Assembly: GCA_027031935.1 (NCBI GenBank)
Contig: JALVPF010000346.1
Span: 1-33,182 of the forward strand
DNA: 33,182 nucleotides
Source of the DNA: Myxococcales bacterium
GTDB lineage: Bacteria; Myxococcota; B64-G9
Direction of reading: 5' to 3'
A program made the position numbers and the translations under genes. The notes under the pieces were generated by a model, which was given only the letters and a program-made list of their open reading frames with translations, made no database searches and was not told the DNA's origin. Below are positions 19,390 to 32,170 of the stretch, piece after piece (the first letter of the stretch is position 1; every line of letters begins with the position of its first letter).

Positions 19390-20958
19390 ATGGACATGAA
19401 AGACAGCAATACCGGTCGTTCTGCTGGTCTCGCTCTGTTTTCAAAGGGTGACCTGAGCGCGTTTTGGGCTCTGTTCGCAGACAACCTTGCCAATCTCATT
19501 CTGATCATGGGTGTAAGCCTTGGGGTTTTGAAGATTCCGGCGCAGGTGGTCTTTGGAAGAATGCTTCCTGGACTGGGCATGGCCCTAGTGGTCGGACTGA
19601 GTTCTTATGCCTATATGGCTCACCGCCTGGCCCGCAAGCAAAAACGACTGGATGTAACAGCCCTGCCATACGGGATCAGTACGCCCATCATGTTCGTGTA
19701 TCTCTTTGGCATAATGGGGCCGGTGTACTGGAAAACACACGATGGCACTCTTGCTTGGCAGGTAGGGCTCGCTGCCGCTTTCATCGGTGGATTGATCGAG
19801 ATATCGGGCTCCCTGCTTGGTCCATGGCTCAAACGTAACCTGCCAAGGGCGGGCATGCTGGGCACTCTGGCGGGAATCGCCCTGGTCTTCATCGCTTCGG
19901 TACCCTTGGCTGAGGTCTTCGAACATCCCATCATTGGCTTGCCGTGTCTGGTCGTGGTTTTGGTTGGCCTGGTGGCCGGGGTTCGTTTTCCCCTGGGAAT
20001 ACCAGCCGGGCTTCTGGCGATCATTCTGGGGGTGTTGTTGGGAACCATGACCGGCCAGGTGTCGCTGAATGCGGAGGGAATAGGCTTTTATCCGCCCATT
20101 CCCGTGGCAGGTGATCTTTGGGCTGGATTGCGGGCCCTGTGGACAGATTCGTGGATCTTTGCCGTCGTGATACCAGCCGAGATTTACAATTTCATAGAGA
20201 CCATGAACAACGTTGAATCAGCGCAGGCGGCAGGTGACGAATATCTTGTTGCTAGCTGTCAGATCATCGATGGAGTGGGCACCCTGGTCGGCTCCTTGTT
20301 CGGGTCAGCTTTTCCCACCACCGTGTACATTGGTCATCCCGGTTACAAGCGAATGGGAGGCAGAGCGGGTTATGCCATGGCAGTGGGAGTTGTCTTGTTG
20401 CTCGCTTCTCTTTTCGGCCTGTTGTCCGTCATCCATGGACTCGTGCCCATGGCAGCGGTTGCACCTATTCTTGTTTTCATCGGGCTGGTGATAACTGCCC
20501 AGGCATTCAGTGCGAGCCCAAGCAAACATTCCATGGCTGTAACCTTGGCCATGTTACCACATCTGTCCAACCTGCTCATGGTCAAGTGGGGAGCCCTCAG
20601 GGTGTCGGCTGAAAAACTCCTTGGCGGATCTCTGCCGAAGATGACAGAGCCTGAAATGCTCTCTGCCATGCTGCTCCAGGGGGCTCATGTTGCAGGCCAC
20701 GCGACCCTTTCTGCAGGAGCCATAATGGTGGGAATGGCCTGGGGGGCTGCCGCAGCCTTCATCATAGACAGATCATGGATCAGGGCTTCAGTAGTGCTTG
20801 CTGTCTCGTCAGCCTTGGCCTTTTTTGGGGTGATCCACTCATCTGGCTTGGGCCTGTATCCAGGAGTTCTTCCTGCTACCTATCTCGCCCTGTCTATGAC
20901 GATGTTGCTCTTGTGGTATTTCAAAGACCAACTGGGATCCGTACACGAAAATGATTGA
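19390..20958 (+). CDS. NCS2-like (xanthine/uracil-type) membrane permease
   Basis: ~12 hydrophobic segments; 'LFADNLANLILIMGVSLGVL', 'TALPYGISTPIMFVY', 'FPTTVYIGHPGYKRMGGRAGYA' match the NCS2 architecture. Confidence 0.75.
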   Translation: MDMKDSNTGRSAGLALFSKGDLSAFWALFADNLANLILIMGVSLGVLKIPAQVVFGRMLPGLGMALVVGLSSYAYMAHRLARKQKRLDVTALPYGISTPIMFVYLFGIMGPVYWKTHDGTLAWQVGLAAAFIGGLIEISGSLLGPWLKRNLPRAGMLGTLAGIALVFIASVPLAEVFEHPIIGLPCLVVVLVGLVAGVRFPLGIPAGLLAIILGVLLGTMTGQVSLNAEGIGFYPPIPVAGDLWAGLRALWTDSWIFAVVIPAEIYNFIETMNNVESAQAAGDEYLVASCQIIDGVGTLVGSLFGSAFPTTVYIGHPGYKRMGGRAGYAMAVGVVLLLASLFGLLSVIHGLVPMAAVAPILVFIGLVITAQAFSASPSKHSMAVTLAMLPHLSNLLMVKWGALRVSAEKLLGGSLPKMTEPEMLSAMLLQGAHVAGHATLSAGAIMVGMAWGAAAAFIIDRSWIRASVVLAVSSALAFFGVIHSSGLGLYPGVLPATYLALSMTMLLLWYFKDQLGSVHEND

Positions 20959-21027: not shown

Positions 21028-21174
21028 GCTTTGGTTTTCGAAAGACAAAAAAGCCTGTTCTTTCAGGCAGATTTGGAGCTTTTCTCCGTGGCATTGATTT
21101 TGCTTAAAACCTATATGCTTCTACGCATGGAGTTTTTGCAGCTAGTTCTTCATGCTTGATAAGGGAGGATCATC

Positions 21175-22449
21175 TTGCACCACATTGATACGACAGTCGG
21201 AATCGAAGCCATTGCAGTACATATTCCCCGGTACTACCTGGATCTGAGAACCCTTGCCAAGGCAAATGCAGTTGATCCTGCAAAGTACCTCAAGGGACTA
21301 GGCGGGAGACGCTTTGCCGTGGCTGCTCCCAGCGAAGATCCCGTTACTCTCGCTTTTGATGCAGCGCAATCTCTCATGGAGAGATATTCCTTGGACCCAT
21401 CGGACATAGGGCTGCTGGTGGTGGGCACCGAGAGTGGAGTGGACGGCGCAAAACCCATCGCATCTTACCTCCATGGCCTGCTGGGCCTGCCAGCGGATTG
21501 TAGAACTTTTGACACGAAGCACGCTTGTTACTCCGGCACCGCTGCCATTCGCATGGCCTCTGACTGGTGCCTTGCCAGGTCAGGCAGAAACAAGCGAAAG
21601 GCCCTGGTGGTTGCAACCGATATCGCTCGATACAGTGTTGGCGCTGCCGGTGAGCCTACCCAGGGCGCATCCGCGGTAGCCATGATCGTCAGTGATGAAC
21701 CAAGGTGCCTGGCATTCGAACCCTTTCAGGACGCGGTTTATTCTGAGGAGGTAATGGACTTTTGGAGACCCCATTATCGATCCACTGCCATGGTCGACGG
21801 CAAAACCTCCATAAACGCCTATCTGAAGGGTTTGAGGCACACGTGGGAATACTACAAGAGCGGGAGTGGACTGGACTGGGATGATTTCGAGTACATGCTG
21901 TTTCATGTACCATTCCCCAAGATGGCATATAAAGGATTCAAGTCCTTGTACGAGATGACCAAGCTGGATCAGGATAAACTCGACGAGGAATTCGATTCCC
22001 GCACGGCTTGTGCTCTGTGGGCAAACCGTGAGTTGGGCAACTGCTACTCCGCTTCACTGTATCTCAGTTTAGCTGCCTTGTTGGAACGTGGCGATCAAAG
22101 CGTGACAGGCGCCAGGGTCGGCATGTATTCATATGGTTCCGGCAGTTGCTCTGAATATTTCTCGGGCAGGATCGGACCTGATGCCTCAGCCTGGAAGGAT
22201 CGTATAGGTATAGCACCCGGGCTAATGCGCAGGGAGGAACTTTCCTACGACCGGTATCTCTCCATGCGGGCAGCTTGTGAAGATCTCTCCCTCGAGGGAT
22301 CCTGCGTCGAGCACGATACCCCACCTGTTCCTGGCCAAAGAATTTCCTTTCAGGGGATAAAAGACCACCAGCGTGTCTATTCCAGAGTGCTTGCTCTAAG
22401 GTCCGTCGCTTCCCGATCCCATTCCGCCAGGGCCCATATGGGAAAATAA
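21175..22449 (+). CDS. mvaS: Hydroxymethylglutaryl-CoA synthase (TTG start)
   Basis: VGIEAIAVHIPRYYLDL; 'GTESGVDGAKPIASYLHGLLGL'; 'FDTKHACYSGTAAIRMA' catalytic Cys; 'FHVPFPKMAYKGF'; 'YSYGSGSCSEYFSGRI'; RBS aagggagga. Confidence 0.93.
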   Translation: MHHIDTTVGIEAIAVHIPRYYLDLRTLAKANAVDPAKYLKGLGGRRFAVAAPSEDPVTLAFDAAQSLMERYSLDPSDIGLLVVGTESGVDGAKPIASYLHGLLGLPADCRTFDTKHACYSGTAAIRMASDWCLARSGRNKRKALVVATDIARYSVGAAGEPTQGASAVAMIVSDEPRCLAFEPFQDAVYSEEVMDFWRPHYRSTAMVDGKTSINAYLKGLRHTWEYYKSGSGLDWDDFEYMLFHVPFPKMAYKGFKSLYEMTKLDQDKLDEEFDSRTACALWANRELGNCYSASLYLSLAALLERGDQSVTGARVGMYSYGSGSCSEYFSGRIGPDASAWKDRIGIAPGLMRREELSYDRYLSMRAACEDLSLEGSCVEHDTPPVPGQRISFQGIKDHQRVYSRVLALRSVASRSHSARAHMGK

Positions 22450-24347
22450 CGTCTGTAATTTTCATAGTCGATGAGGGTGGTCTTGTTGAACACCCCAACG
22501 AGAGGTTCTTCCGGCCAGTCTCCATCCTCTTGTTGCCGCCTCATGAGAAAAGTCGCGCCCCGTTTTGCAGCAGCCGTATTGGCAAGGCCGCACCGGACCA
22601 GGGATGAAAGAGCCCATGCTGTTTGCACTGCGGTGCTCCCGGACTTTACCCATCGCTGCTCGGTACACGAACTGAAGTGTTCGCCCCATCCTCCGTCCGG
22701 GTTTTGGTGCGCTACCAGAAAGCCGCATGCATTCTGCAGAGCATGGTCACTGTTTTTGGCTCCCGCAGCAAGCAGGGCGGTGGTTGCAAACCATGTGCCG
22801 TAAGTGAAACAAACCGCCCAGGATCCATACCAGGAACCATCGGCGCGTTGTGTCTTTCGTACGAATGCGTTCGCCCTGGACATGGCCCGTTTGATCTTCC
22901 GGTCCATGTCTGTACCGAACATGCCTCTGGCCTTTGACAAGGCTTGCATGCACGCAGACGAGCATTCCACGTAGGAGTGATCCACCATTATGGCTGAAAA
23001 GACTTGAGAGGGGTTGAGGTGCTCGAGCCAATCCCCACCGCGTTTTTTTTCGTAAGAGGCCCAGCCTCCATCTGGATTTTGCATGGACAGAATGAGTTCA
23101 ATTGCCATCCTAAGCCTGCTGCTTTCCATGGGCTGTTTTACCCATGGTGACAGCTCCTTGGCTGCCTTGAAGCCCTCTGCCGTGCAATCCGTAATAGGCC
23201 ATCCGTGCTCTACGTCCGAAAAGGGCCAGCCTCCCTTTGACCTGTGTCGGTAATGAAGACTGGCTTGGGGAACATCTTCCAGTACCTGATTCTTGTTTAT
23301 GTAATCAAATGCATTTTGCAGGCTGTGCCTGAACTCATGCACGAATGGGGTAGAGAGTATGGCCTGGGTGGTAAAGGCGGTATCCCACAGGGCGGTGTTA
23401 TTGTATCCGTTGAACTTGGTGCCCTCCGGAGTGTTGACCAGGTACCTGTCAAGTGCGGCAAAGCTCTTGTTCTCCTCTGGACCTCCCGGTGAATGAAAGT
23501 GATGTACCAGGGTGTTGAGAACGCTGTTGACCGGTCCTATGTCTATAAAATGCGTAGCCTGATCTTCGAAGGATATCTGCTTGTAGACCTCGTCCAGTGC
23601 TTTTTCGCGCAGAGTGCCCCCAGCACGTCGCTCATAGGTCTGGAGCAATTTGCTGGCTGCTTTGTAAAATGGGCTCAGGGGATAGATGTTGTCGCATGGA
23701 CAGATGGTGTCTTTGTGCTTGCTGAAGTCTATGCTTTCGTAGTCCGCGTCGTAAAGCTCCTGCCTCAATTCCAGTGTCAATTCGTCGGCTGGAGCCTGAG
23801 CCCGTTTTCCATATAGCCATGACATGGGCAGGTACACCATTCGGCTGTGGCACCAGAACCTGCCGGGATGAAATGGTACGGAATAGGGCAGAAGCCACAT
23901 CTCCGGGGTAATGGGATGGAGTCCATCATAGGAATACAAATTCAGCACGGCCAGGATGAACTTCCCCCAGGACGCTGCGCCCAGCGCCGTGCCATTATCA
24001 TGCATCCATTTTCGCATGGCCGCAGCCTGCGTGTCTTTCTTTTCTACACCCAACATGCGGAGGGCAACATAGCCCAAGGCAGTGGTGAACATGCAAGCTG
24101 AATCCTCTTCATGCAGGCCCAGGCTCCCGTCAGGATTCTGGTAGTGCTTGAGGAACCGTATCATGGATTCTTTTTGGCCCTGTTTGATAGAACGCTTGGC
24201 TATGTGACATGCGGCCACATACATGGGCAAGAGAAACTGTGGCCCTCCGTATTCACCACGCCAGGAACCATCTTTTCCCTGTAGCCCGGTGAAAAAAAGA
24301 AGACCTTTGTGAATGGTGTCTTTTACGTCAGCTGAGGTCTTGTTCAT
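22377..24347 (-). CDS. Oxidosqualene cyclase-type triterpene cyclase (cycloartenol/lanosterol synthase family)
   Basis: 'GGWPFSDVEHGWPITDCTAEGFKA' (DCTAE, not the SHC DxDD); 'FHPGRFWCHSRMVYLPMSWLYGKR'; 'YVECSSACMQAL'; 'QRADGSWYGSWAVCFTYGTWF'; 'DGGWGEHFSSCTEQRW'; 'GVFNKTTLIDYENYRRYFPIWAL'. Confidence 0.9.
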   Translation of the reverse strand: MNKTSADVKDTIHKGLLFFTGLQGKDGSWRGEYGGPQFLLPMYVAACHIAKRSIKQGQKESMIRFLKHYQNPDGSLGLHEEDSACMFTTALGYVALRMLGVEKKDTQAAAMRKWMHDNGTALGAASWGKFILAVLNLYSYDGLHPITPEMWLLPYSVPFHPGRFWCHSRMVYLPMSWLYGKRAQAPADELTLELRQELYDADYESIDFSKHKDTICPCDNIYPLSPFYKAASKLLQTYERRAGGTLREKALDEVYKQISFEDQATHFIDIGPVNSVLNTLVHHFHSPGGPEENKSFAALDRYLVNTPEGTKFNGYNNTALWDTAFTTQAILSTPFVHEFRHSLQNAFDYINKNQVLEDVPQASLHYRHRSKGGWPFSDVEHGWPITDCTAEGFKAAKELSPWVKQPMESSRLRMAIELILSMQNPDGGWASYEKKRGGDWLEHLNPSQVFSAIMVDHSYVECSSACMQALSKARGMFGTDMDRKIKRAMSRANAFVRKTQRADGSWYGSWAVCFTYGTWFATTALLAAGAKNSDHALQNACGFLVAHQNPDGGWGEHFSSCTEQRWVKSGSTAVQTAWALSSLVRCGLANTAAAKRGATFLMRRQQEDGDWPEEPLVGVFNKTTLIDYENYRRYFPIWALAEWDREATDLRASTLE

Positions 24348-24385: not shown

Positions 24386-25675
24386 TCAGGCGCTGCCGGT
24401 GATTTTGCTTGTGAACTTGGTGGCCATGTGCTTTGCGGTTTTCCAGTATGGTTCCCAGAATGCGCCCGAGTCCATATCATCGAGCAATCCGTCGTAAATG
24501 CCCTCCATGCGCTGCCGCCACTGTGGATCGATTTTTACCACCCTGTCTGCCCACTCGTGGCAGTAGCGACATTTGTCGCAGTCCACCGCGCGGCAGGAGT
24601 GGGTCTTGAAGAAGTCGATGAAACCATCGAGTTCCCTGTTGTCTATCTGTATGGGGTTGGGCCCCTTTCTCGGATAGAGCACTCCAGCGTGTTGTCCAAA
24701 TTCTACCACCTTGGTAAATTTCAGCAGGTTTACCATGTGCGGTTTTATAAAATACTTGAGCATGCGTTTATACGAGTAGGCGTCCTTGGCTTTTTCGCCA
24801 AAGGACTCCTCGGGATATGCGTAGTTCTGGATCAGATCCATGAGGTTGCCCTCATAGCGCCTTTCCGAATATGCCTTAGCACGCTGAATGAGTATGGGAG
24901 TAGGGGTGTTTCGTTCGACAATCTTGAAATTGTGGAAGCCCATTTCCTCGTACAAGGGAAGATCTTCCGGACGTATCCAGTTGGCCCTGAGTATGTTCAC
25001 CGGGTCGTTTACCCGAATGCGGTTGCAGACCACGGAACAGTAGTCCAGGGGGAAGCCCTTGGAGCCACGCTGAGATGCGTTGGACAGGGCAACTGCGTGG
25101 TTGCCTGCTATGGCGCATTCCTGGCGACACCAGTTGTTGACGATGAGCTGAAGCTCGACCCCCGCATCCTGTGCTGCTTCGTTCATGGTGCGGAGGAGAT
25201 CGAATTCGCGATGTATGCTCACCTCGTTGACAACTATGTAGTCCGCACCGTTTTCCGCCCAGAAGCGCACCTTTCGTGGAGAGTCGGTAAACCGGTGTGA
25301 GCTGACCCGTACTTTCAGTCGTGGATGGCGTCGCTTGATCAATCTGAGGAAGAAAATGTTTGCCACGGTAACCGAGTCCACGCCGATTTCATCGAGCCAA
25401 CCAAGCATATGGTTCATGGCTCGCTGGCCTTCCTTGGAATATTCCAGGTTGTCCATGGCAGATGCGTTGAGAAGGTAGTTGAACTCGATACCGGCATTGT
25501 GTGTCTTTCTGACGTAGCTTTCCAACTCGGTCTTGTCTATTTCAGGAAGATAGAACGAGGGCCTTCCCCCTCCGAAAAAGTCCGAAGTCAATTTGCCAAA
25601 AATTTCATACACCGGGTACTCGCGGAGTCCCTCTATTAGTTCGTCTTCAAAGGTACAGGCAACTGATAATTTCAT
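24386..25675 (-). CDS. U32 peptidase-family protein (UbiU/UbiV/TrhP superfamily), probable Fe-S protein
   Basis: 'MKLSVACTFEDELIEGL', 'FYLPEIDKTELESYVRKTHNAGIEFNYLLN', 'VRVSSHRFTDSPRKVRFWAENGADYIVVNEVSIHREFDLL', Cys pairs NNWCRQEC and DYCSVVC, plus C-terminal CRAVDCDKCRYC; ATGA overlap with upstream gene. Confidence 0.75.
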   Translation of the reverse strand: MKLSVACTFEDELIEGLREYPVYEIFGKLTSDFFGGGRPSFYLPEIDKTELESYVRKTHNAGIEFNYLLNASAMDNLEYSKEGQRAMNHMLGWLDEIGVDSVTVANIFFLRLIKRRHPRLKVRVSSHRFTDSPRKVRFWAENGADYIVVNEVSIHREFDLLRTMNEAAQDAGVELQLIVNNWCRQECAIAGNHAVALSNASQRGSKGFPLDYCSVVCNRIRVNDPVNILRANWIRPEDLPLYEEMGFHNFKIVERNTPTPILIQRAKAYSERRYEGNLMDLIQNYAYPEESFGEKAKDAYSYKRMLKYFIKPHMVNLLKFTKVVEFGQHAGVLYPRKGPNPIQIDNRELDGFIDFFKTHSCRAVDCDKCRYCHEWADRVVKIDPQWRQRMEGIYDGLLDDMDSGAFWEPYWKTAKHMATKFTSKITGSA

Positions 25676-26769
25676 TTCACTCCTCCACTCTTTCTTTTCT
25701 TCAGGCTTTTTTGCTCAAGACCTGAGTCGGAAAGGAATTTTTTGAATTCCTCTATGTCCAGCTGTTGTTGACTGTCAGACCTGGCTACCGATGGAAATGG
25801 GTGGACTTCCACCATTATTCCATCAGCACCTGCCGCCATGGAGGCCCTGGCCAGGGCGGCGAGTATGTCCTTGCGTCCTGCAGCGTGGCTTACGTCGGCG
25901 ATTACCGGAAGGTAGGTCTTGGCCTTGAGCAGCGCAACAGCAGATATGTCCAGGGTATTGCGCGTTTGGGTCTCGAAGGTTCTTATTCCCCGTTCACACA
26001 GGATGATATTGTCGTTTCCTTCTGATGCGATGTACTCCGCAGCCCACAGAAATTCGTCTATGGTTGCCGAGAGTCCGCGTTTGAGCAGTACGGGTTTTTC
26101 ACACCGTCCCACCTCCCTGAGCAGGGAGTAATTGTGCATGTTACGGGCGCCAATTTGAAGAATGTCCGCGTAGTTGGCAACCAGTTCCACTGCCCTGGTG
26201 TCCATGACCTCTGTTACGGTGGCCATGTGATGGTCCTCACCCGCTTTTCTGAGGATCTTCAGGCCCGGCTCACCCATGCCCTGAAACGAGTATGGCGATG
26301 AGCGGGGCTTGAAGGTTCCGCCTCTCAGGATACCAATACCCAGGTCCGCCAGCTCAGAGGCGATCTGTTCCATTTGCGCTTCGCTCTCTACGGCGCATGG
26401 GCCTGCTATGACGATGGGCTTGTCACCAATTACCACCCGTCCCACCTCAATCCGTTTGGAGTCGGGAGATTTGGCCCTGCTGATCTGGAGCTGGCGGTGC
26501 GAATCCGTCTCCTGAAGTTGTGCACATGCTCTGAAAATCTCCTTGAAGAGGTGGGAGATTGTCTTGTCGGAAAAGGGCCCACGATTTTCACCAAGGATCT
26601 CGCTGAGCATTTGTTGTTCACGCTCTGGAACATATGCTGGTATTCCGTCGCGGGTTTTGATCCTGTGGGCATGCTCAACCACTTTTGCTCTTTTGTTCAG
26701 GAGGTTGAGGATGGCCAAGTTCATGTCTTGCAGCTCTTTGCGCAGTTGATCCAGGTTTTGCTCTGACAT
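25672..26769 (-). CDS. aroA(G)-like: Bifunctional chorismate mutase (AroQ-type) / 3-deoxy-7-phosphoheptulonate synthase
   Basis: N-terminal 'LRKELQDMNLAILNLLNKRAKVVEHAHRIK' chorismate mutase; C-terminal 'IAGPCAVESEAQ...LRGGTFKPRSSPYSFQG...QIGARNMHNYSLL...KPVLLKRG...GIRTFETQTRNTLDISAV...ADVSHAAGRKD...GIMVEVHPFP'. Confidence 0.92.
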   Translation of the reverse strand: MSEQNLDQLRKELQDMNLAILNLLNKRAKVVEHAHRIKTRDGIPAYVPEREQQMLSEILGENRGPFSDKTISHLFKEIFRACAQLQETDSHRQLQISRAKSPDSKRIEVGRVVIGDKPIVIAGPCAVESEAQMEQIASELADLGIGILRGGTFKPRSSPYSFQGMGEPGLKILRKAGEDHHMATVTEVMDTRAVELVANYADILQIGARNMHNYSLLREVGRCEKPVLLKRGLSATIDEFLWAAEYIASEGNDNIILCERGIRTFETQTRNTLDISAVALLKAKTYLPVIADVSHAAGRKDILAALARASMAAGADGIMVEVHPFPSVARSDSQQQLDIEEFKKFLSDSGLEQKSLKKRKSGGVK

Positions 26770-26801: not shown

Positions 26802-26944
26802 GACAAGCAAAGTTCGGGCCATCTGGGCAAACTAATAATAAAAAGAATAATCAGGCTTATTGTCCTGTGGATCTTCCTGTGGACTGTTGTTTGTGCCCCT
26901 GGGGGCGTGCGAATTCGAACGATGTGTGCGGCTGTAAGTGCGAT

Positions 26945-27826
26945 TCAGTTCTCGATGCTGGATTGAATGAACCTGGCCAGATCCACCAGGACATGGGCTC
27001 TGTGTCCAAAGCAGTCAACTGATTCCACGGCCTTGTTCACAAGGGATTTTGCATAATCTTTTGCCTGGGGCAGCCCCATGAGAGCGGGATAGGTCTGTTT
27101 GCCCTGGGATTCGTCCTTGCCTGCCGTCTTTCCAAGTTGAGATTTTTTTCCGATTATGTCCAGGATGTCGTCCGCCACCTGGAAGGCGAGCCCCAGTGAC
27201 TCACCATAGACAGTAAGTGCTTGAATATCCTCCATGTTTGCTTCTGCAAGCAAGGCACCACACCTTACGGATGCCAGGATTAGGGCTCCTGTCTTCATGC
27301 TATGTATTTTTTCCACACTCTGTTTGTCCGGTGTTCCGCCTTCACCATCCAGGTCCAGCACCTGGCCTCCCACCATTCCCTTTGAGCCTGCAGCGCTTGC
27401 AATTTCTTCGAGGATTTTCATGCCCACCGAAGAACTCGTGGTGGCATATCCCCTGGCAATCAGCCCAAATGCTTCAGTCAGAAGGGCGTCACCTGCCAGG
27501 ATGGCCATGGCCTCACCAAATTCCTTGTGGCTCGTGGCTTTTCCCCTTCGAAGATCGTCATCATCCATGGCTGGCAGGTCGTCGTGGATAAGCGAGTAAG
27601 TGTGTATGAATTCGAGGGCGCATGCTGCTGGCATGGGGTCCAGACTGTGGTCGTAGAGTTCGCTGGTGGCCACGGTCAAAACAGGTCTTATGCGTTTTCC
27701 CCCTGCAAACAGGGAGTAGGACATGGCTTGCATGAGGTGTCGAGGTCCTTGGCATGCACTGAACTGTTCCCTGAGTGCATTTTCCACCCTGTCTCGGATG
27801 GCTATGAGTGTGCTGGGATACTGCAT
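26945..27826 (-). CDS. ispA: Polyprenyl (farnesyl/geranylgeranyl) diphosphate synthase, IspA-type
   Basis: FARM 'SLIHDDLPAMDDDDLRRGKATSHKEFGEA'; SARM 'FQVADDILDIIGKKSQLGKTAGKDESQGKQTYP'; ATG at 27826 preceded by GGAGAG. Confidence 0.9.
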   Translation of the reverse strand: MQYPSTLIAIRDRVENALREQFSACQGPRHLMQAMSYSLFAGGKRIRPVLTVATSELYDHSLDPMPAACALEFIHTYSLIHDDLPAMDDDDLRRGKATSHKEFGEAMAILAGDALLTEAFGLIARGYATTSSSVGMKILEEIASAAGSKGMVGGQVLDLDGEGGTPDKQSVEKIHSMKTGALILASVRCGALLAEANMEDIQALTVYGESLGLAFQVADDILDIIGKKSQLGKTAGKDESQGKQTYPALMGLPQAKDYAKSLVNKAVESVDCFGHRAHVLVDLARFIQSSIEN

Positions 27827-28125
27827 GGTCTCTCCTGTCAAACGAATTTGTTCCCGGACAAACCCAAAGACGGTCCTTGTCCTTGAAGCTTGTCCTGAGC
27901 CAAGCCGGGTTCTTCGTGCTTTCTATGCAAGTCTTTTGCCAGTTTTCATGTCAGCGTCTGTGCGAAAATGCACATTGCTGGGTTCATGGTATTATACCTC
28001 CTGGGAGGATAGTTCGTGATTTCCTTTCAGGTCAAAGGATTCTGAATAAATACATGCTTTCTGGCACAGTTCGTGCTTTGAATGTTGACGTTTGAATGGG
28101 AGTTGTTTCCTGCAGGAGAGAGCCC

Positions 28126-29211
28126 ATGGCTGAAGAGATTACCCGGAACGAATCAGTGGAGCAGCGAAAAAAGGATCATCTGAAGCCTTTTCGCCAAGGA
28201 GGGGTGAATGCCAGGGACGCAAGCACATGGCTCGAGCATGTGCATCTGCTTCATGACGCCTTGCCGGAGATCAGCAAGGATGAAATTGACACCAGCGCTG
28301 AGTTTTGTGGAAGAAGGTTTTCATCCCCCTTGTTTATCACTGGAATGACGGGTGGAACCAAAGAAGCTCAAACCATAAATCGGCAGTTGGCACAGGTGGC
28401 ACAGGAACTGGACCTGGGTTTTGGTCTTGGAAGCGGCCGCGCCATGCTCGACCATGAGGAACTGACCGAGACATATATGGTCAGGGATGTGGCCCCTGAC
28501 ATTTTTCTGGCGTGGAACCTTGGCGGTGTTCAGCTTTTGCACACGGAAGTGACGAAAATTTCCAAGGCAATGGATGAGTTGAAAGCTGATGCTCTGTGTG
28601 TCCACCTGAATCCTGCCCAGGAGTTGGTTCAACCTGAAGGTGACAGGGATTTCAGGGGGGTGTTGGACGCCATATCCAGGCTGGTCAAAGGCTTTGATTG
28701 GCCCATTATCGTCAAGGAGACGGGGGCTGGTATCTCGAAGAAGGTTGCGGGCATGCTCGTGGATGTGGGAGTGGAGTGGTTGGACGTAGCTGGCTGTGGT
28801 GGTACCTCATGGCCCGGGGTCGAGCTGCTCAGGAGCGGCAAGGAAGATGATCCCAACGCACAGGCTCTCTGGGACTGGGGGATACCAACGGCGGCGGCTA
28901 TCGCAGAGACAAGAAAACAGGCCAAGGGGATTATCGCTTCAGGAGGTATTCGCACCGGTTTGGATGCTGCAAGGGCATTGGCCCTCGGGGCGGACATGGC
29001 AGGAGTCGCTTCTCCTGTCTTACAGGCATGGTTTTCTGCGGGTAAAAAGGGAGCCCATGACTATCTTTCAGGTCTGAAGGATGGTTTGGTCAATTCAATG
29101 TTGCTTGCCGGCTGCAAGGACATCCCTCAGCTTCAGGATGCTCCAAGGGTTGTGACCGGGCCCTTGTTGCTCTGGATCCAACAGCGAAATCTTGAACAGA
29201 CCGGTGTCTGA
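28126..29211 (+). CDS. fni: Type 2 (FMN-dependent) isopentenyl-diphosphate delta-isomerase
   Basis: 'RKKDHLKP...FSSPLFITGMTGGTKEAQTINRQLAQVAQELDLGFGLGSGRAML...VHLNPAQELVQPEGDRDF...VKETGAGISKK...GVEWLDVAGCGGTSWPGVE'; RBS caggagaga. Confidence 0.94.
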   Translation: MAEEITRNESVEQRKKDHLKPFRQGGVNARDASTWLEHVHLLHDALPEISKDEIDTSAEFCGRRFSSPLFITGMTGGTKEAQTINRQLAQVAQELDLGFGLGSGRAMLDHEELTETYMVRDVAPDIFLAWNLGGVQLLHTEVTKISKAMDELKADALCVHLNPAQELVQPEGDRDFRGVLDAISRLVKGFDWPIIVKETGAGISKKVAGMLVDVGVEWLDVAGCGGTSWPGVELLRSGKEDDPNAQALWDWGIPTAAAIAETRKQAKGIIASGGIRTGLDAARALALGADMAGVASPVLQAWFSAGKKGAHDYLSGLKDGLVNSMLLAGCKDIPQLQDAPRVVTGPLLLWIQQRNLEQTGV

Positions 29212-29230
29212 ATTGGACAGGGCAAAGGAA

Positions 29231-30235
29231 ATGAGATCATTGACCGGTGATTTTTCAACGGACGTTTTGCCTCGCCTTGGTTCATATTCCAAGGTTATCC
29301 TCTTCGGGGAGCATGCGGCGGTATATGGACATCCTGCCCTGGCCATGGGCCTGGCTGATGGAATGGTGGTACAGCAACTTGCACCCAGGGAAAAAGGAGT
29401 TCACCTGGTGGTGCAGCCGTGGGGGCTTGATGTAAGCGAACAGTCTCCACAGCAGCTTGGCGAGGTGCTACGGATTTTGCTGCAGCAGGTGCCAGGGGGG
29501 CCTGCGGGCATGGATGTGGCCCTGAAGGCATCTGTGCCTCCGGGTGCAGGTCTGGGTAGCTCGGCATCCCTGAGTGTGTCCTTGGTCAAGTGCCTGGCTT
29601 GGACAAGAGGTGTTTTTGTGAGTGATGAAGATGTCAGGGACATGGCTCATGGGCTGGAGAGGATTTTCCACGGAAACCCCTCCGGGCTGGATGATACGGT
29701 CGCGACCTTTGGTGGAATGTGCCTGTTTGAAAAAGATGGCATCGATTCAGCAATCAGCCCGGGTTCCCATCGTCTCAGTGAGCAGTGCATACAGTTGCCC
29801 TTCGCCATTCCCGGTCTGGTACTGGGTGACACTGGGGTCAAGCGTTCAACCGCTGCCATGGTGGATTCGGTCAGGAGACAGAGGCAGAGTGACAGGGTAC
29901 GGGTGGATGGGATGTTTTCCCAGGTGGACTCATGCCTGAACGAAGGTCTGCAGGCCATGGAAAAAAGGGACTGGTCAACGCTCGGCCAGGCCATGAGCCG
30001 CAACCACCAATTGCTTTGCCAACTGGATTTGTCCTGTCCGGAAATCGAGGACATGCTGGGCCTGGCCATGGAGCATGGCGCTTTGGGAGGCAAGTTGACC
30101 GGAGCAGGTGGCGGAGGCGCGGTCGTGGTCCTGGCTCCGGGCTTCGAGAGGGAGATTGCCAGGGCATGGAAGGATGCTGGTTTTTTTGCCTGGTCTGCTG
30201 CTGCCTCTGAGGATACTGGAGGCAGTAATGACTAA
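29231..30235 (+). CDS. mvk: Mevalonate kinase (GHMP family)
   Basis: 'SKVILFGEHAAVYGHPALAMGL', 'SVPPGAGLGSSASLSVSLVKCLA', 'HGNPSGLDDTVATFGG', 'GKLTGAGGGGAVVVLA'. Confidence 0.92.
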   Translation: MRSLTGDFSTDVLPRLGSYSKVILFGEHAAVYGHPALAMGLADGMVVQQLAPREKGVHLVVQPWGLDVSEQSPQQLGEVLRILLQQVPGGPAGMDVALKASVPPGAGLGSSASLSVSLVKCLAWTRGVFVSDEDVRDMAHGLERIFHGNPSGLDDTVATFGGMCLFEKDGIDSAISPGSHRLSEQCIQLPFAIPGLVLGDTGVKRSTAAMVDSVRRQRQSDRVRVDGMFSQVDSCLNEGLQAMEKRDWSTLGQAMSRNHQLLCQLDLSCPEIEDMLGLAMEHGALGGKLTGAGGGGAVVVLAPGFEREIARAWKDAGFFAWSAAASEDTGGSND

Positions 30236-31211
30236 CAGCGCCTTGGCTACAGCTCATACCAATGTTGCCTTGGTCAAGTACTGGGGCAAGCAGGATTTGG
30301 AAAAAAATATTCCGGCCACCTCCAGCCTTTCCATGACCCTGGATGGCCTGTGGACCCGAACAAGGGTCACTTTTGACGAATCCCTTGAATCAGACCTGGT
30401 GCTTCTCAATGGACAAAGGGCTGAAGAAAAGGTCTCTTTGAGGGTCAGCGGATTTGTGGACATGGTTCGGGTCATGGCGAAAACCAACTGCCGGGTGTCA
30501 GTGGAGACAGAGAACAATTTTCCCACCGCTGGAGGGCTTGCCTCATCCGCTTCCGGCTTTGCGGCTTTGTGTGCAGCAAGCACAGCAGCAGCCGGCCTGG
30601 ATCTGGATCTTCAACAATTGGCCTCCTTGGCTCGGCAAGGTTCCGGTTCTGCACCTAGAAGCCTTTTGGGTGGATTTGTCGCCCTAAACCTGAAAAAAGC
30701 TGAATCAGGTCAAGACTGCGTAGTTCAACAGGTGGCTGCTGCCGGGCATTGGGATGTTTGCATGGTCATAGCCCTTTGTGCTGATGGTCCCAAGAAAGTG
30801 GGTTCCACGGCAGGAATGGAGAGATCCAAGCGGACTTCGCCTTATTACCAGGGATGGCTGGACTCTCATGATCTCGACATGCAAGAGGCCCGGTCTGCCC
30901 TGGAAAGGCGTGACCTCGATGCACTTGGTCGAGTGGCTGAAAGATCGTGTTTCAAGATGCATGCTCTGGCCATGAGTTCCGATCCTCCACTGATATATTT
31001 CAAAGGCGCGACCCTCAATGCCATAGAGCGGGTTTGGCAGTTGAGGGAGGACGGCTTGGCAGGATGGGTGACCATAGATGCCGGACCTCATGTGAAAGTC
31101 TTTTGCGAAGCCGAAAATGCCAAGGATTTTGCAGAACAACTCGCCAAGGTGCCAGGGGTTCAGAAGGTAATGATCGCCCCTGTAGGCCCCGGCGTAAAGG
31201 TCGGCCAATGA
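30228..31211 (+). CDS. mvaD: Diphosphomevalonate decarboxylase
   Basis: Start MTNSALATAHTNVALVKYWGKQD; 'NNFPTAGGLASSASGFAAL'; 'ARQGSGSAPRSLLGGFV'; 'TIDAGPHVKV'; overlaps mvk end by 8 nt. Confidence 0.93.
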   Translation: MTNSALATAHTNVALVKYWGKQDLEKNIPATSSLSMTLDGLWTRTRVTFDESLESDLVLLNGQRAEEKVSLRVSGFVDMVRVMAKTNCRVSVETENNFPTAGGLASSASGFAALCAASTAAAGLDLDLQQLASLARQGSGSAPRSLLGGFVALNLKKAESGQDCVVQQVAAAGHWDVCMVIALCADGPKKVGSTAGMERSKRTSPYYQGWLDSHDLDMQEARSALERRDLDALGRVAERSCFKMHALAMSSDPPLIYFKGATLNAIERVWQLREDGLAGWVTIDAGPHVKVFCEAENAKDFAEQLAKVPGVQKVMIAPVGPGVKVGQ

Positions 31212-32170
31212 GGTATGATAACTTGAAAATATTCGCGCCGGGCAAGCTAATCCTCATGGGAGAGTATGCAGTCCGCCATGATGGCCCAGGTGTGGTGATG
31301 GCGATCGATCGTCTTGCAAGTTTGCGGTGGCTTTCTTCTTCCGGCGATGGACGCGATGATCTGGTCTCCCAGGCACGTTCACACACAGCGCCCTTGCTGG
31401 GTGTGGGCAAGCTCGGTCCTTGCGCAGTTGATTCGTCCGGATTTTATCATGAAGGACAAAAACTTGGACTTGGAAGCAGCGCTGCTGTGACAGCTGCTTC
31501 CGTCGCCTCGGTCTTTGTGGAAGCGGGTCGTGATATCTCCTCAGCCATCGAACGCCAGGAAATGTGGGATATCGCCATGGACGTGCACGATCGTTTCCAG
31601 GCAGTGCATGGAAGCGGCCTGGACCTGGCAGCGTCCATATTTGGCGGTTTCGTGATGATGGACAAAAGTTGTGATGATGTTCCTTTGAAAAGCTGGAAAC
31701 TTCCTAAAGGGATTGACCTGCTTTTTTGTTGGACCCACTCTCCTGCTTCCACCTCGTCCATGGTGGATGCGATTGACCGGTGGAGCGTCGCACATGAGAC
31801 AAAGTATGCAGGCATCATGTCCGAGATGACAGACCTTGCGGGTACATTCTGCCATGCTGATCCTGACGTGGGGCAAACCATCGCGCTCATAGACAGGTAC
31901 GGGATGTTGATGGACCGGCTGGGAAGGGACTCGGGCGTGCCTGTTGTTACAGACATGATGAGAGAGCTTTTTTCCTTGGCCAGGGACATGGGTGGAGCGG
32001 CGAAGCCATCAGGTGCAGGGGGGGGAGATTTTTTCATGGCCGCATTCGGCGACCTCGACGCACGTGACAGGTTTGAGGCTGCAGCCAGCGAGCTGGGCGC
32101 TTTGCCCGTACATTTCAATATTTGCGACAAAGGGGTCTACGCTCATGACGGAGACCACCATAGTGGATGA
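31208..32170 (+). CDS. Phosphomevalonate kinase (GHMP family)
   Basis: ATGA overlap with mvaD; 'IFAPGKLILMGEYAVRHDGPGVVMAIDR', 'KLGLGSSAAVTAASVASVF', 'VHGSGLDLAASIFGGFV', 'AKPSGAGGGDFFMAAF'; operon context. Confidence 0.82.
   Translation: MRYDNLKIFAPGKLILMGEYAVRHDGPGVVMAIDRLASLRWLSSSGDGRDDLVSQARSHTAPLLGVGKLGPCAVDSSGFYHEGQKLGLGSSAAVTAASVASVFVEAGRDISSAIERQEMWDIAMDVHDRFQAVHGSGLDLAASIFGGFVMMDKSCDDVPLKSWKLPKGIDLLFCWTHSPASTSSMVDAIDRWSVAHETKYAGIMSEMTDLAGTFCHADPDVGQTIALIDRYGMLMDRLGRDSGVPVVTDMMRELFSLARDMGGAAKPSGAGGGDFFMAAFGDLDARDRFEAAASELGALPVHFNICDKGVYAHDGDHHSG

Follow-up and report, generated by a model that had tools for sequence, protein, structure and literature searches.

A Myxococcota gene cluster joining an oxidosqualene cyclase to a U32-family protein and prephenate-making genes as a candidate for oxygen-independent sterol synthesis

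The window, i.e., the whole stretch of 33,182 nucleotides that was analysed, contains most of one gene cluster, in which an oxidosqualene cyclase (OSC), a U32-family protein and a bifunctional DAHP synthase/chorismate mutase (DAHPS/CM) are encoded together with enzymes of the mevalonate pathway (Table 1). Sterol synthesis independent of O2 is a candidate function of this cluster, which combines two known kinds of system and comes from a little-known branch of the Myxococcota. We consider it moderately likely that it directs the formation of a protosterol without O2, with a prephenate-fed U32 protein substituting for squalene epoxidase (SE) and supplying the OSC. Only slightly do we lean toward the statement that anaerobic Myxococcota make true sterols without any O2, whereby the hydroxyl of prephenate, supplied through in-cluster shikimate genes, would serve the U32 Fe-S protein as the oxygen source for squalene epoxidation and the OSC would close the rings. 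The original prediction had placed the cyclase in the frame of ordinary bacterial sterol synthesis, which overlooks the central finding, namely an OSC clade without SE that is linked to the U32 gene and to prephenate-making genes.

Table 1. Genes and sigma-54-like sites of the cluster in the window
Feature	Position	Strand	Basis and remarks
Sigma-54-like site TGGCATTGATTTTGC	21089..21103	+	upstream of HMG-CoA synthase
HMG-CoA synthase	21175..22449	+	TIGR01835, 363.7 bits (cut-off 360.35)
Oxidosqualene cyclase (OSC)	22377..24347	-	656 aa; profiles, PDB relatives, catalytic residues, phylogeny
U32-family protein	24386..25675	-	429 aa; PF01136, alignments, predicted fold, profile search (6.7e-12)
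Bifunctional DAHP synthase/chorismate mutase (DAHPS/CM)	25672..26769	-	NCBIfam PRK12595, 512 bits (cut-off 279)
Sigma-54-like -24/-12 site TGGCCCGAACTTTGC	26807..26821	-	upstream of the DAHPS/CM-U32-OSC unit
Farnesyl diphosphate (FPP) synthase	26945..27841	-	NCBIfam NF045485, 354 bits (cut-off 275)
Sigma-54-like site TGGCAAAAGACTTGC	27927..27941	-	upstream of FPP synthase
Sigma-54-like site TGGCACAGTTCGTGC	28062..28076	+	upstream of IDI2 and the mevalonate operon
Type 2 isopentenyl-diphosphate isomerase (IDI2)	28096..29211	+	TIGR02151, 373.7 bits (above cut-off)
Mevalonate kinase	29192..30235	+	TIGR00549, 209.9 bits (above cut-off)
Diphosphomevalonate decarboxylase	30108..31211	+	TIGR01240, 280.7 bits (above cut-off); ORF start uncertain, overlaps both neighbours
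Phosphomevalonate kinase-like GHMP kinase	30947..32170	+	TIGR01220, 109.7 bits (below cut-off 165.7); syntenic in G005
HMG-CoA reductase (HMGR), truncated by contig end	31992..33182	+	TIGR00532, 285.7 bits

The OSC reading frame, which occupies exactly the interval given in Table 1, was intact, with an ATG start and no internal stop codons. Its product matched the Pfam models SQHop_cyclase_C and SQHop_cyclase_N at 3.9e-61 and 2e-42, and it scored 724 bits with the 2,3-oxidosqualene cyclase model TIGR03463 compared with 252 bits for the squalene-hopene cyclase (SHC) model TIGR01507. The top PDB relative was human lanosterol synthase (1w6k, E 5.7e-172), while an SHC reached only 2e-44. The acid motif DCTAE was located at residues 387-391 (window 23175-23189), and the protein also contained WCHSRMVYLPMS, YVECSSA, GSWAVCFTYGTWF and GVFNKTTLIDYENYRRYFPIWAL, so that all motifs quoted in the original prediction were found in the reading frame. 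The residues D455, C456, C533, H232 and F696 (human numbering) were kept. In an IQ-TREE phylogeny with OSC and SHC references, the two families were separated with a support of 100/100, and the window cyclase was placed among the OSCs, away from the SHCs. An SHC identity was ruled out by the profile scores, the missing DxDD motif and this tree position. By sequence comparison the enzyme is therefore an OSC, as had been predicted at the outset, and the tree, catalytic residues, profiles and PDB comparisons agreed on this point.

TIGR03463 was the best model, yet its score remained below the curated cut-off of 851, which is a narrow subfamily threshold and no functional feature. Labelling by annotation pipelines as 'squalene-hopene cyclase' or 'prenyltransferase/squalene oxidase repeat' had been considered possible; since the TIGR03463 cut-off was missed, the likelier name would come from TIGR01787, 'squalene/oxidosqualene cyclases', which the protein matched with 607 bits (above the cut-off of 322.7). 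Within the phylum, an OSC was present in 56 of 195 genomes. The sterols of Myxococcota are well studied (PMC12004948), and the window OSC, taken by itself, adds one more member to a known family and is unsurprising for its phylum.

Together with the OSCs of three further genomes (G001, G005 and G020), to which it was 55-57% identical, the OSC of G000, the genome that contains the window (5.5 Mb in 613 contigs, 92% complete), formed a separate clade (support 100/98) with 13 other Myxococcota OSCs as its sister, in a tree computed without Eudoraea, whose very long branch had fallen inside the four-genome clade. No other PF13243 cyclase was found in G000. C456, C533 and the DCTAE motif were kept in all four OSCs of the clade (DCTSE in G005), and none contained DxDD. 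The cycloartenol-type triad Y381/H449/I453 (human numbering) was present in G000, G001 and G005, and the corresponding residues were Y/N/T in G020. I453 tracks cycloartenol production among bacteria (PMC4919349). A cycloartenol-like product is thus predicted for G000, G001 and G005, with G020 deviating. The cycloartenol-type OSCs of Stigmatella and Cystobacter (TIGR03463) have the same fold, the same catalytic residues and the same type of triad at about 50% identity, and they belong to one OSC clade with the window enzyme. However, they are accompanied by SE in aerobes, whereas the OSCs of the window clade occur without SE and with U32, DAHPS/CM and shikimate genes.

SE (PF08491), an O2-dependent flavoprotein unrelated to U32, fills the step from squalene to 2,3-oxidosqualene before the OSC in Methylococcus, Gemmata, Stigmatella and eukaryotes. 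It was not found in G000 (92% complete), G001 (98%), G005 (100%) or G020 (94%); metagenome-assembled genomes (MAGs) can miss genes, and this absence rests on four genomes with a completeness of 92-100%. Of the 36 other OSC-bearing genomes tested in the phylum, 35 contained SE, mostly beside the OSC, and SE was also present in the Methylothermaceae and Eudoraea loci. The one exception, G184, was too weak to serve as a further SE-less case, being an 86% complete MAG with a U32 fragment at a contig edge and an OSC of another clade. Model searches of the same four genomes returned no P450 and no PF04116 oxygenase of the fatty-acid-hydroxylase type, the type to which the alternative squalene epoxidase belongs.

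The terminal oxidases gave a graded picture. No heme-copper oxidase COX1 was found in G001, G005 or G020, and G000 yielded one atypical COX1 match far under the cytochrome oxidase cut-off. Cytochrome bd was found in G000, G001 and G020 and not in the 100% complete G005, which has none of the O2-using enzymes sought. G000, G001 and G020 may therefore have some O2 tolerance, and we infer an anaerobic life for G000. The atypical match in G000 (L167, 4295-6520 on contig C322) is a heme-copper-oxidase-like subunit preceded by a COX2-like protein; a PDB sequence search with it returned no relative, and it could be an NO reductase or an unusual oxidase.

Within the cluster, the DAHPS/CM and U32 genes share 4 bp, and the U32 gene lies 38 bp upstream of the OSC gene in the same unit. 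The order DAHPS/CM, U32, (C-24 reductase homolog), OSC was observed in all four genomes of the clade. The HMG-CoA synthase gene is convergent with the OSC gene and overlaps it by 73 bp, a neighbourhood kept in G001 and G020. At the other end, the C-terminus of HMGR opens another contig of G000 (C92), followed by HpnC, HpnD, a sigma-54 response regulator, aroB, aroD and aroE/aroK, and the same gene order after HMGR was seen in G001; the window end and C92 share no exact sequence overlap, so that their join is deduced from the split HMGR gene and synteny. Mevalonate and squalene genes were present in all four clusters. The shikimate route to prephenate (DAHPS/CM, aroB, D, E/K, A and C) was complete in the G020 and G001 clusters and partial, up to the contig ends, in that of G000. 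The clusters of G005 and G020 additionally carry HpnE, a histidine kinase and a GGR-family gene; no HpnE was found in the part of the cluster seen for G000. G000, G001 and G005 belong to one family and G020 to another. Just outside the cluster, the window encodes a 522-aa multi-spanning membrane protein (19390-20958) with no Pfam or NCBIfam match, which resembles a transporter of the xanthine/uracil-permease type. Elsewhere in G000, a second squalene/phytoene synthase-like protein of 411 aa (L039, 7827-9062 on contig C493), unlinked to the cluster, matched several squalene synthase models weakly.

A sigma-54-like site with at most one mismatch was located closely upstream of each of the four transcription units in the window, and matching sites were present at unit starts in G001, G002, G005 and G020. 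Because a looser scan of the whole window showed no enrichment over shuffled sequences, these sites were treated as supporting evidence only. The sigma-54 response regulator on C92 is itself encoded in the cluster.

The U32 protein was matched by PF01136 at 1.2e-9. Its AlphaFold model (pLDDT 80.9, pTM 0.84) matched the solved U32 structure 5d88 in Foldseek with an E-value of 3.1e-11. Cys183, 187, 213 and 217 were invariant across 12 U32 homologs and aligned with the cysteines that bind the [4Fe-4S] cluster in UbiU, UbiV, RlhA and TrhP of E. coli, and a second set of cysteines (361/366/369/372) was located in the C-terminus. The protein would accordingly be expected, judging from these alignments, to hold an Fe-S cluster. 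The spacing CX3CX25CX3C differed from the CX6CX15CX3/4C pattern, from which UbiU and UbiV also deviate (PMC6747719). The identity to E. coli U32 proteins was 14-20%. The UbiU-UbiV-UbiT system of E. coli and other proteobacteria likewise relies on U32 proteins with four Fe-S cysteines, which replace O2-dependent flavin monooxygenases with prephenate as the donor (PMC6747719, PMC11574389). Unlike the two partners UbiU and UbiV, the present system has one U32 protein with two sets of cysteines, another spacing, squalene as the presumed substrate and its own prephenate genes in the cluster.

At a threshold of at least 57% identity, the U32 protein was found in 12 of 195 genomes of the phylum. An OSC was present in 11 of these 12 genomes and in 45 of the 183 others (Fisher p 4.8e-6, kinship ignored); in the twelfth, G002, no OSC was found and the contig stops inside the U32 gene. 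The U32 gene adjoined DAHPS/CM in every genome with a readable flank. Two types could be distinguished by a C-terminal extension, which is missing in group A and present in group B. Group A occurred in all four SE-less genomes of the clade and in none of 35 SE-bearing genomes (Fisher p 1.2e-5, kinship ignored). Group B occurred in six genomes that also have SE, where the DAHPS/CM-U32 pair was not linked to the OSC; these stand-alone pairs with an extended U32 (L076, L077, L078, L079, L080 and L081), in OSC- and SE-bearing Myxococcota, had unrelated neighbours. By analogy, and not as evidence, this coexistence resembles the situation in facultative anaerobes in which UbiIHF and UbiUV are retained side by side. 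A distant U32 paralog with 35% identity (L083, 7234-10870, in G093) was flanked by a B12-binding radical SAM protein on one side and a methyltransferase on the other, with no DAHPS/CM beside it, and may possibly belong to another U32 pathway.

Where a GGR-family gene separates U32 from OSC (G005 and G020), its product has the YxWxFP motif and the Cys known from the characterised sterol C-24 reductase. Bsr is a GGR-family sterol C-24 reductase of Myxococcota (PMC12004948). This homolog beside the OSC indicates a real sterol product; no such gene was found in the window operon or in the G001 operon. C-24 reduction needs no O2. The GGR-like flavoprotein was rejected as the main epoxidase candidate because it belongs to the C-24 reductase family, also lies beside the OSC where SE is present (L037, L169 and L181) and is missing from the window and G001 operons.

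In the proposed pathway, acetyl-CoA would be converted to FPP via the mevalonate pathway, and HpnC/HpnD(/HpnE) would form squalene. In parallel, DAHPS/CM, which opens the shikimate pathway, and the clustered shikimate genes would provide prephenate, the product of chorismate mutase. The U32 Fe-S protein, with prephenate as its oxygen donor, would then convert squalene into 2,3-oxidosqualene in place of the O2-dependent SE, and the OSC would cyclise this epoxide to a 3-hydroxy protosterol, probably cycloartenol. We infer the activity of U32 on squalene, its donor, the epoxide and the final product because the OSC is intact, no epoxidase family sought was found, and the U32 gene and a prephenate route lie directly upstream and in the cluster, respectively. 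Since the catalytic residues of the OSC are intact, the enzyme is retained despite the absence of the epoxidase that would normally feed it. Oxygen insertion by U32 hydroxylases does not depend on O2, and the RNA-modifying members need prephenate (PMC11574389, PMC10470549): mutations in prephenate synthesis abolish the RNA hydroxylations by RlhA and TrhP (PMC11574389). Prephenate is the reported oxygen donor of UbiUV according to PMC11574389, which cites PNAS 2024 e2321242121.

Several observations count against this proposal. The linkage was seen in four genomes of one OSC clade and may represent one evolutionary event, and the six SE-bearing genomes with the pair away from the OSC may point to another substrate for the module. 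Known U32 hydroxylases target aromatic or pyrimidine carbons, not alkenes, and UbiU requires its partner UbiV, whereas a single U32 protein is encoded here. The deviating cysteine spacing, the lack of HpnE in the part of the G000 cluster seen, the genes that MAGs can miss, and the cytochrome bd and the heme-copper-oxidase-like protein of G000 also weigh against it.

The strongest competing explanation, which we regard as unlikely, is that oxidosqualene comes from an epoxidase, O2-dependent or of another kind, which escaped recognition and is encoded elsewhere in the genome, while U32-DAHPS/CM acts on RNA, a quinone, a later sterol step or another substrate. The unlinked pairs in SE-bearing genomes fit this explanation, as does the cytochrome bd of three clade genomes, by which some O2 is presumably met; however, the SE, P450 and fatty-acid-hydroxylase models all failed to match in the four genomes, U32 and OSC share one transcription unit in each of them and shikimate genes are clustered with it, and the association of U32 with OSC across the phylum stands against it as well. 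Distinctly less probable is a direct cyclisation of squalene to a 3-deoxy tetracycle, whose product U32 would hydroxylate or which would stay free of oxygen. Squalene should be available via HpnC/D with SE not found, and anaerobes do cyclise squalene directly with SHC-type enzymes, but the four cyclases branch inside the OSCs and keep the epoxide-type acid motif, C456 and C533. That the shikimate, mevalonate and squalene genes are co-regulated housekeeping genes, e.g., for quinone synthesis, with a mechanistically meaningless OSC linkage, is very improbable, for although quinones draw on both chorismate and isoprenoids and a sigma-54 regulator and sites at several units are at hand, no quinone genes were recognised among the annotated cluster genes, chorismate mutase diverts from chorismate-derived quinones, and U32 adjoins DAHPS/CM wherever this could be read.

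Since squalene epoxidation requires O2, sterols and steranes are taken as evidence of O2, and sterol synthesis without O2 is thought not to occur. A literature search, with preprints and most subscription papers outside its scope, found no prior account of sterol synthesis without O2 or of a U32 protein together with oxidosqualene. In a 2016 survey, none of the anaerobes had an OSC, and the authors allowed that a different route might still come to light (PMC4919349); the cluster described here is a concrete candidate for that anaerobic pathway. If the prephenate-dependent epoxidation by U32 is true, it would undercut the rule that sterols need oxygen and would bear on the sterane record and on the sequence of the first appearances of oxygen and of sterols, and the U32 hydroxylases would gain a lipid substrate and a new chemistry, the epoxidation of an alkene without O2.
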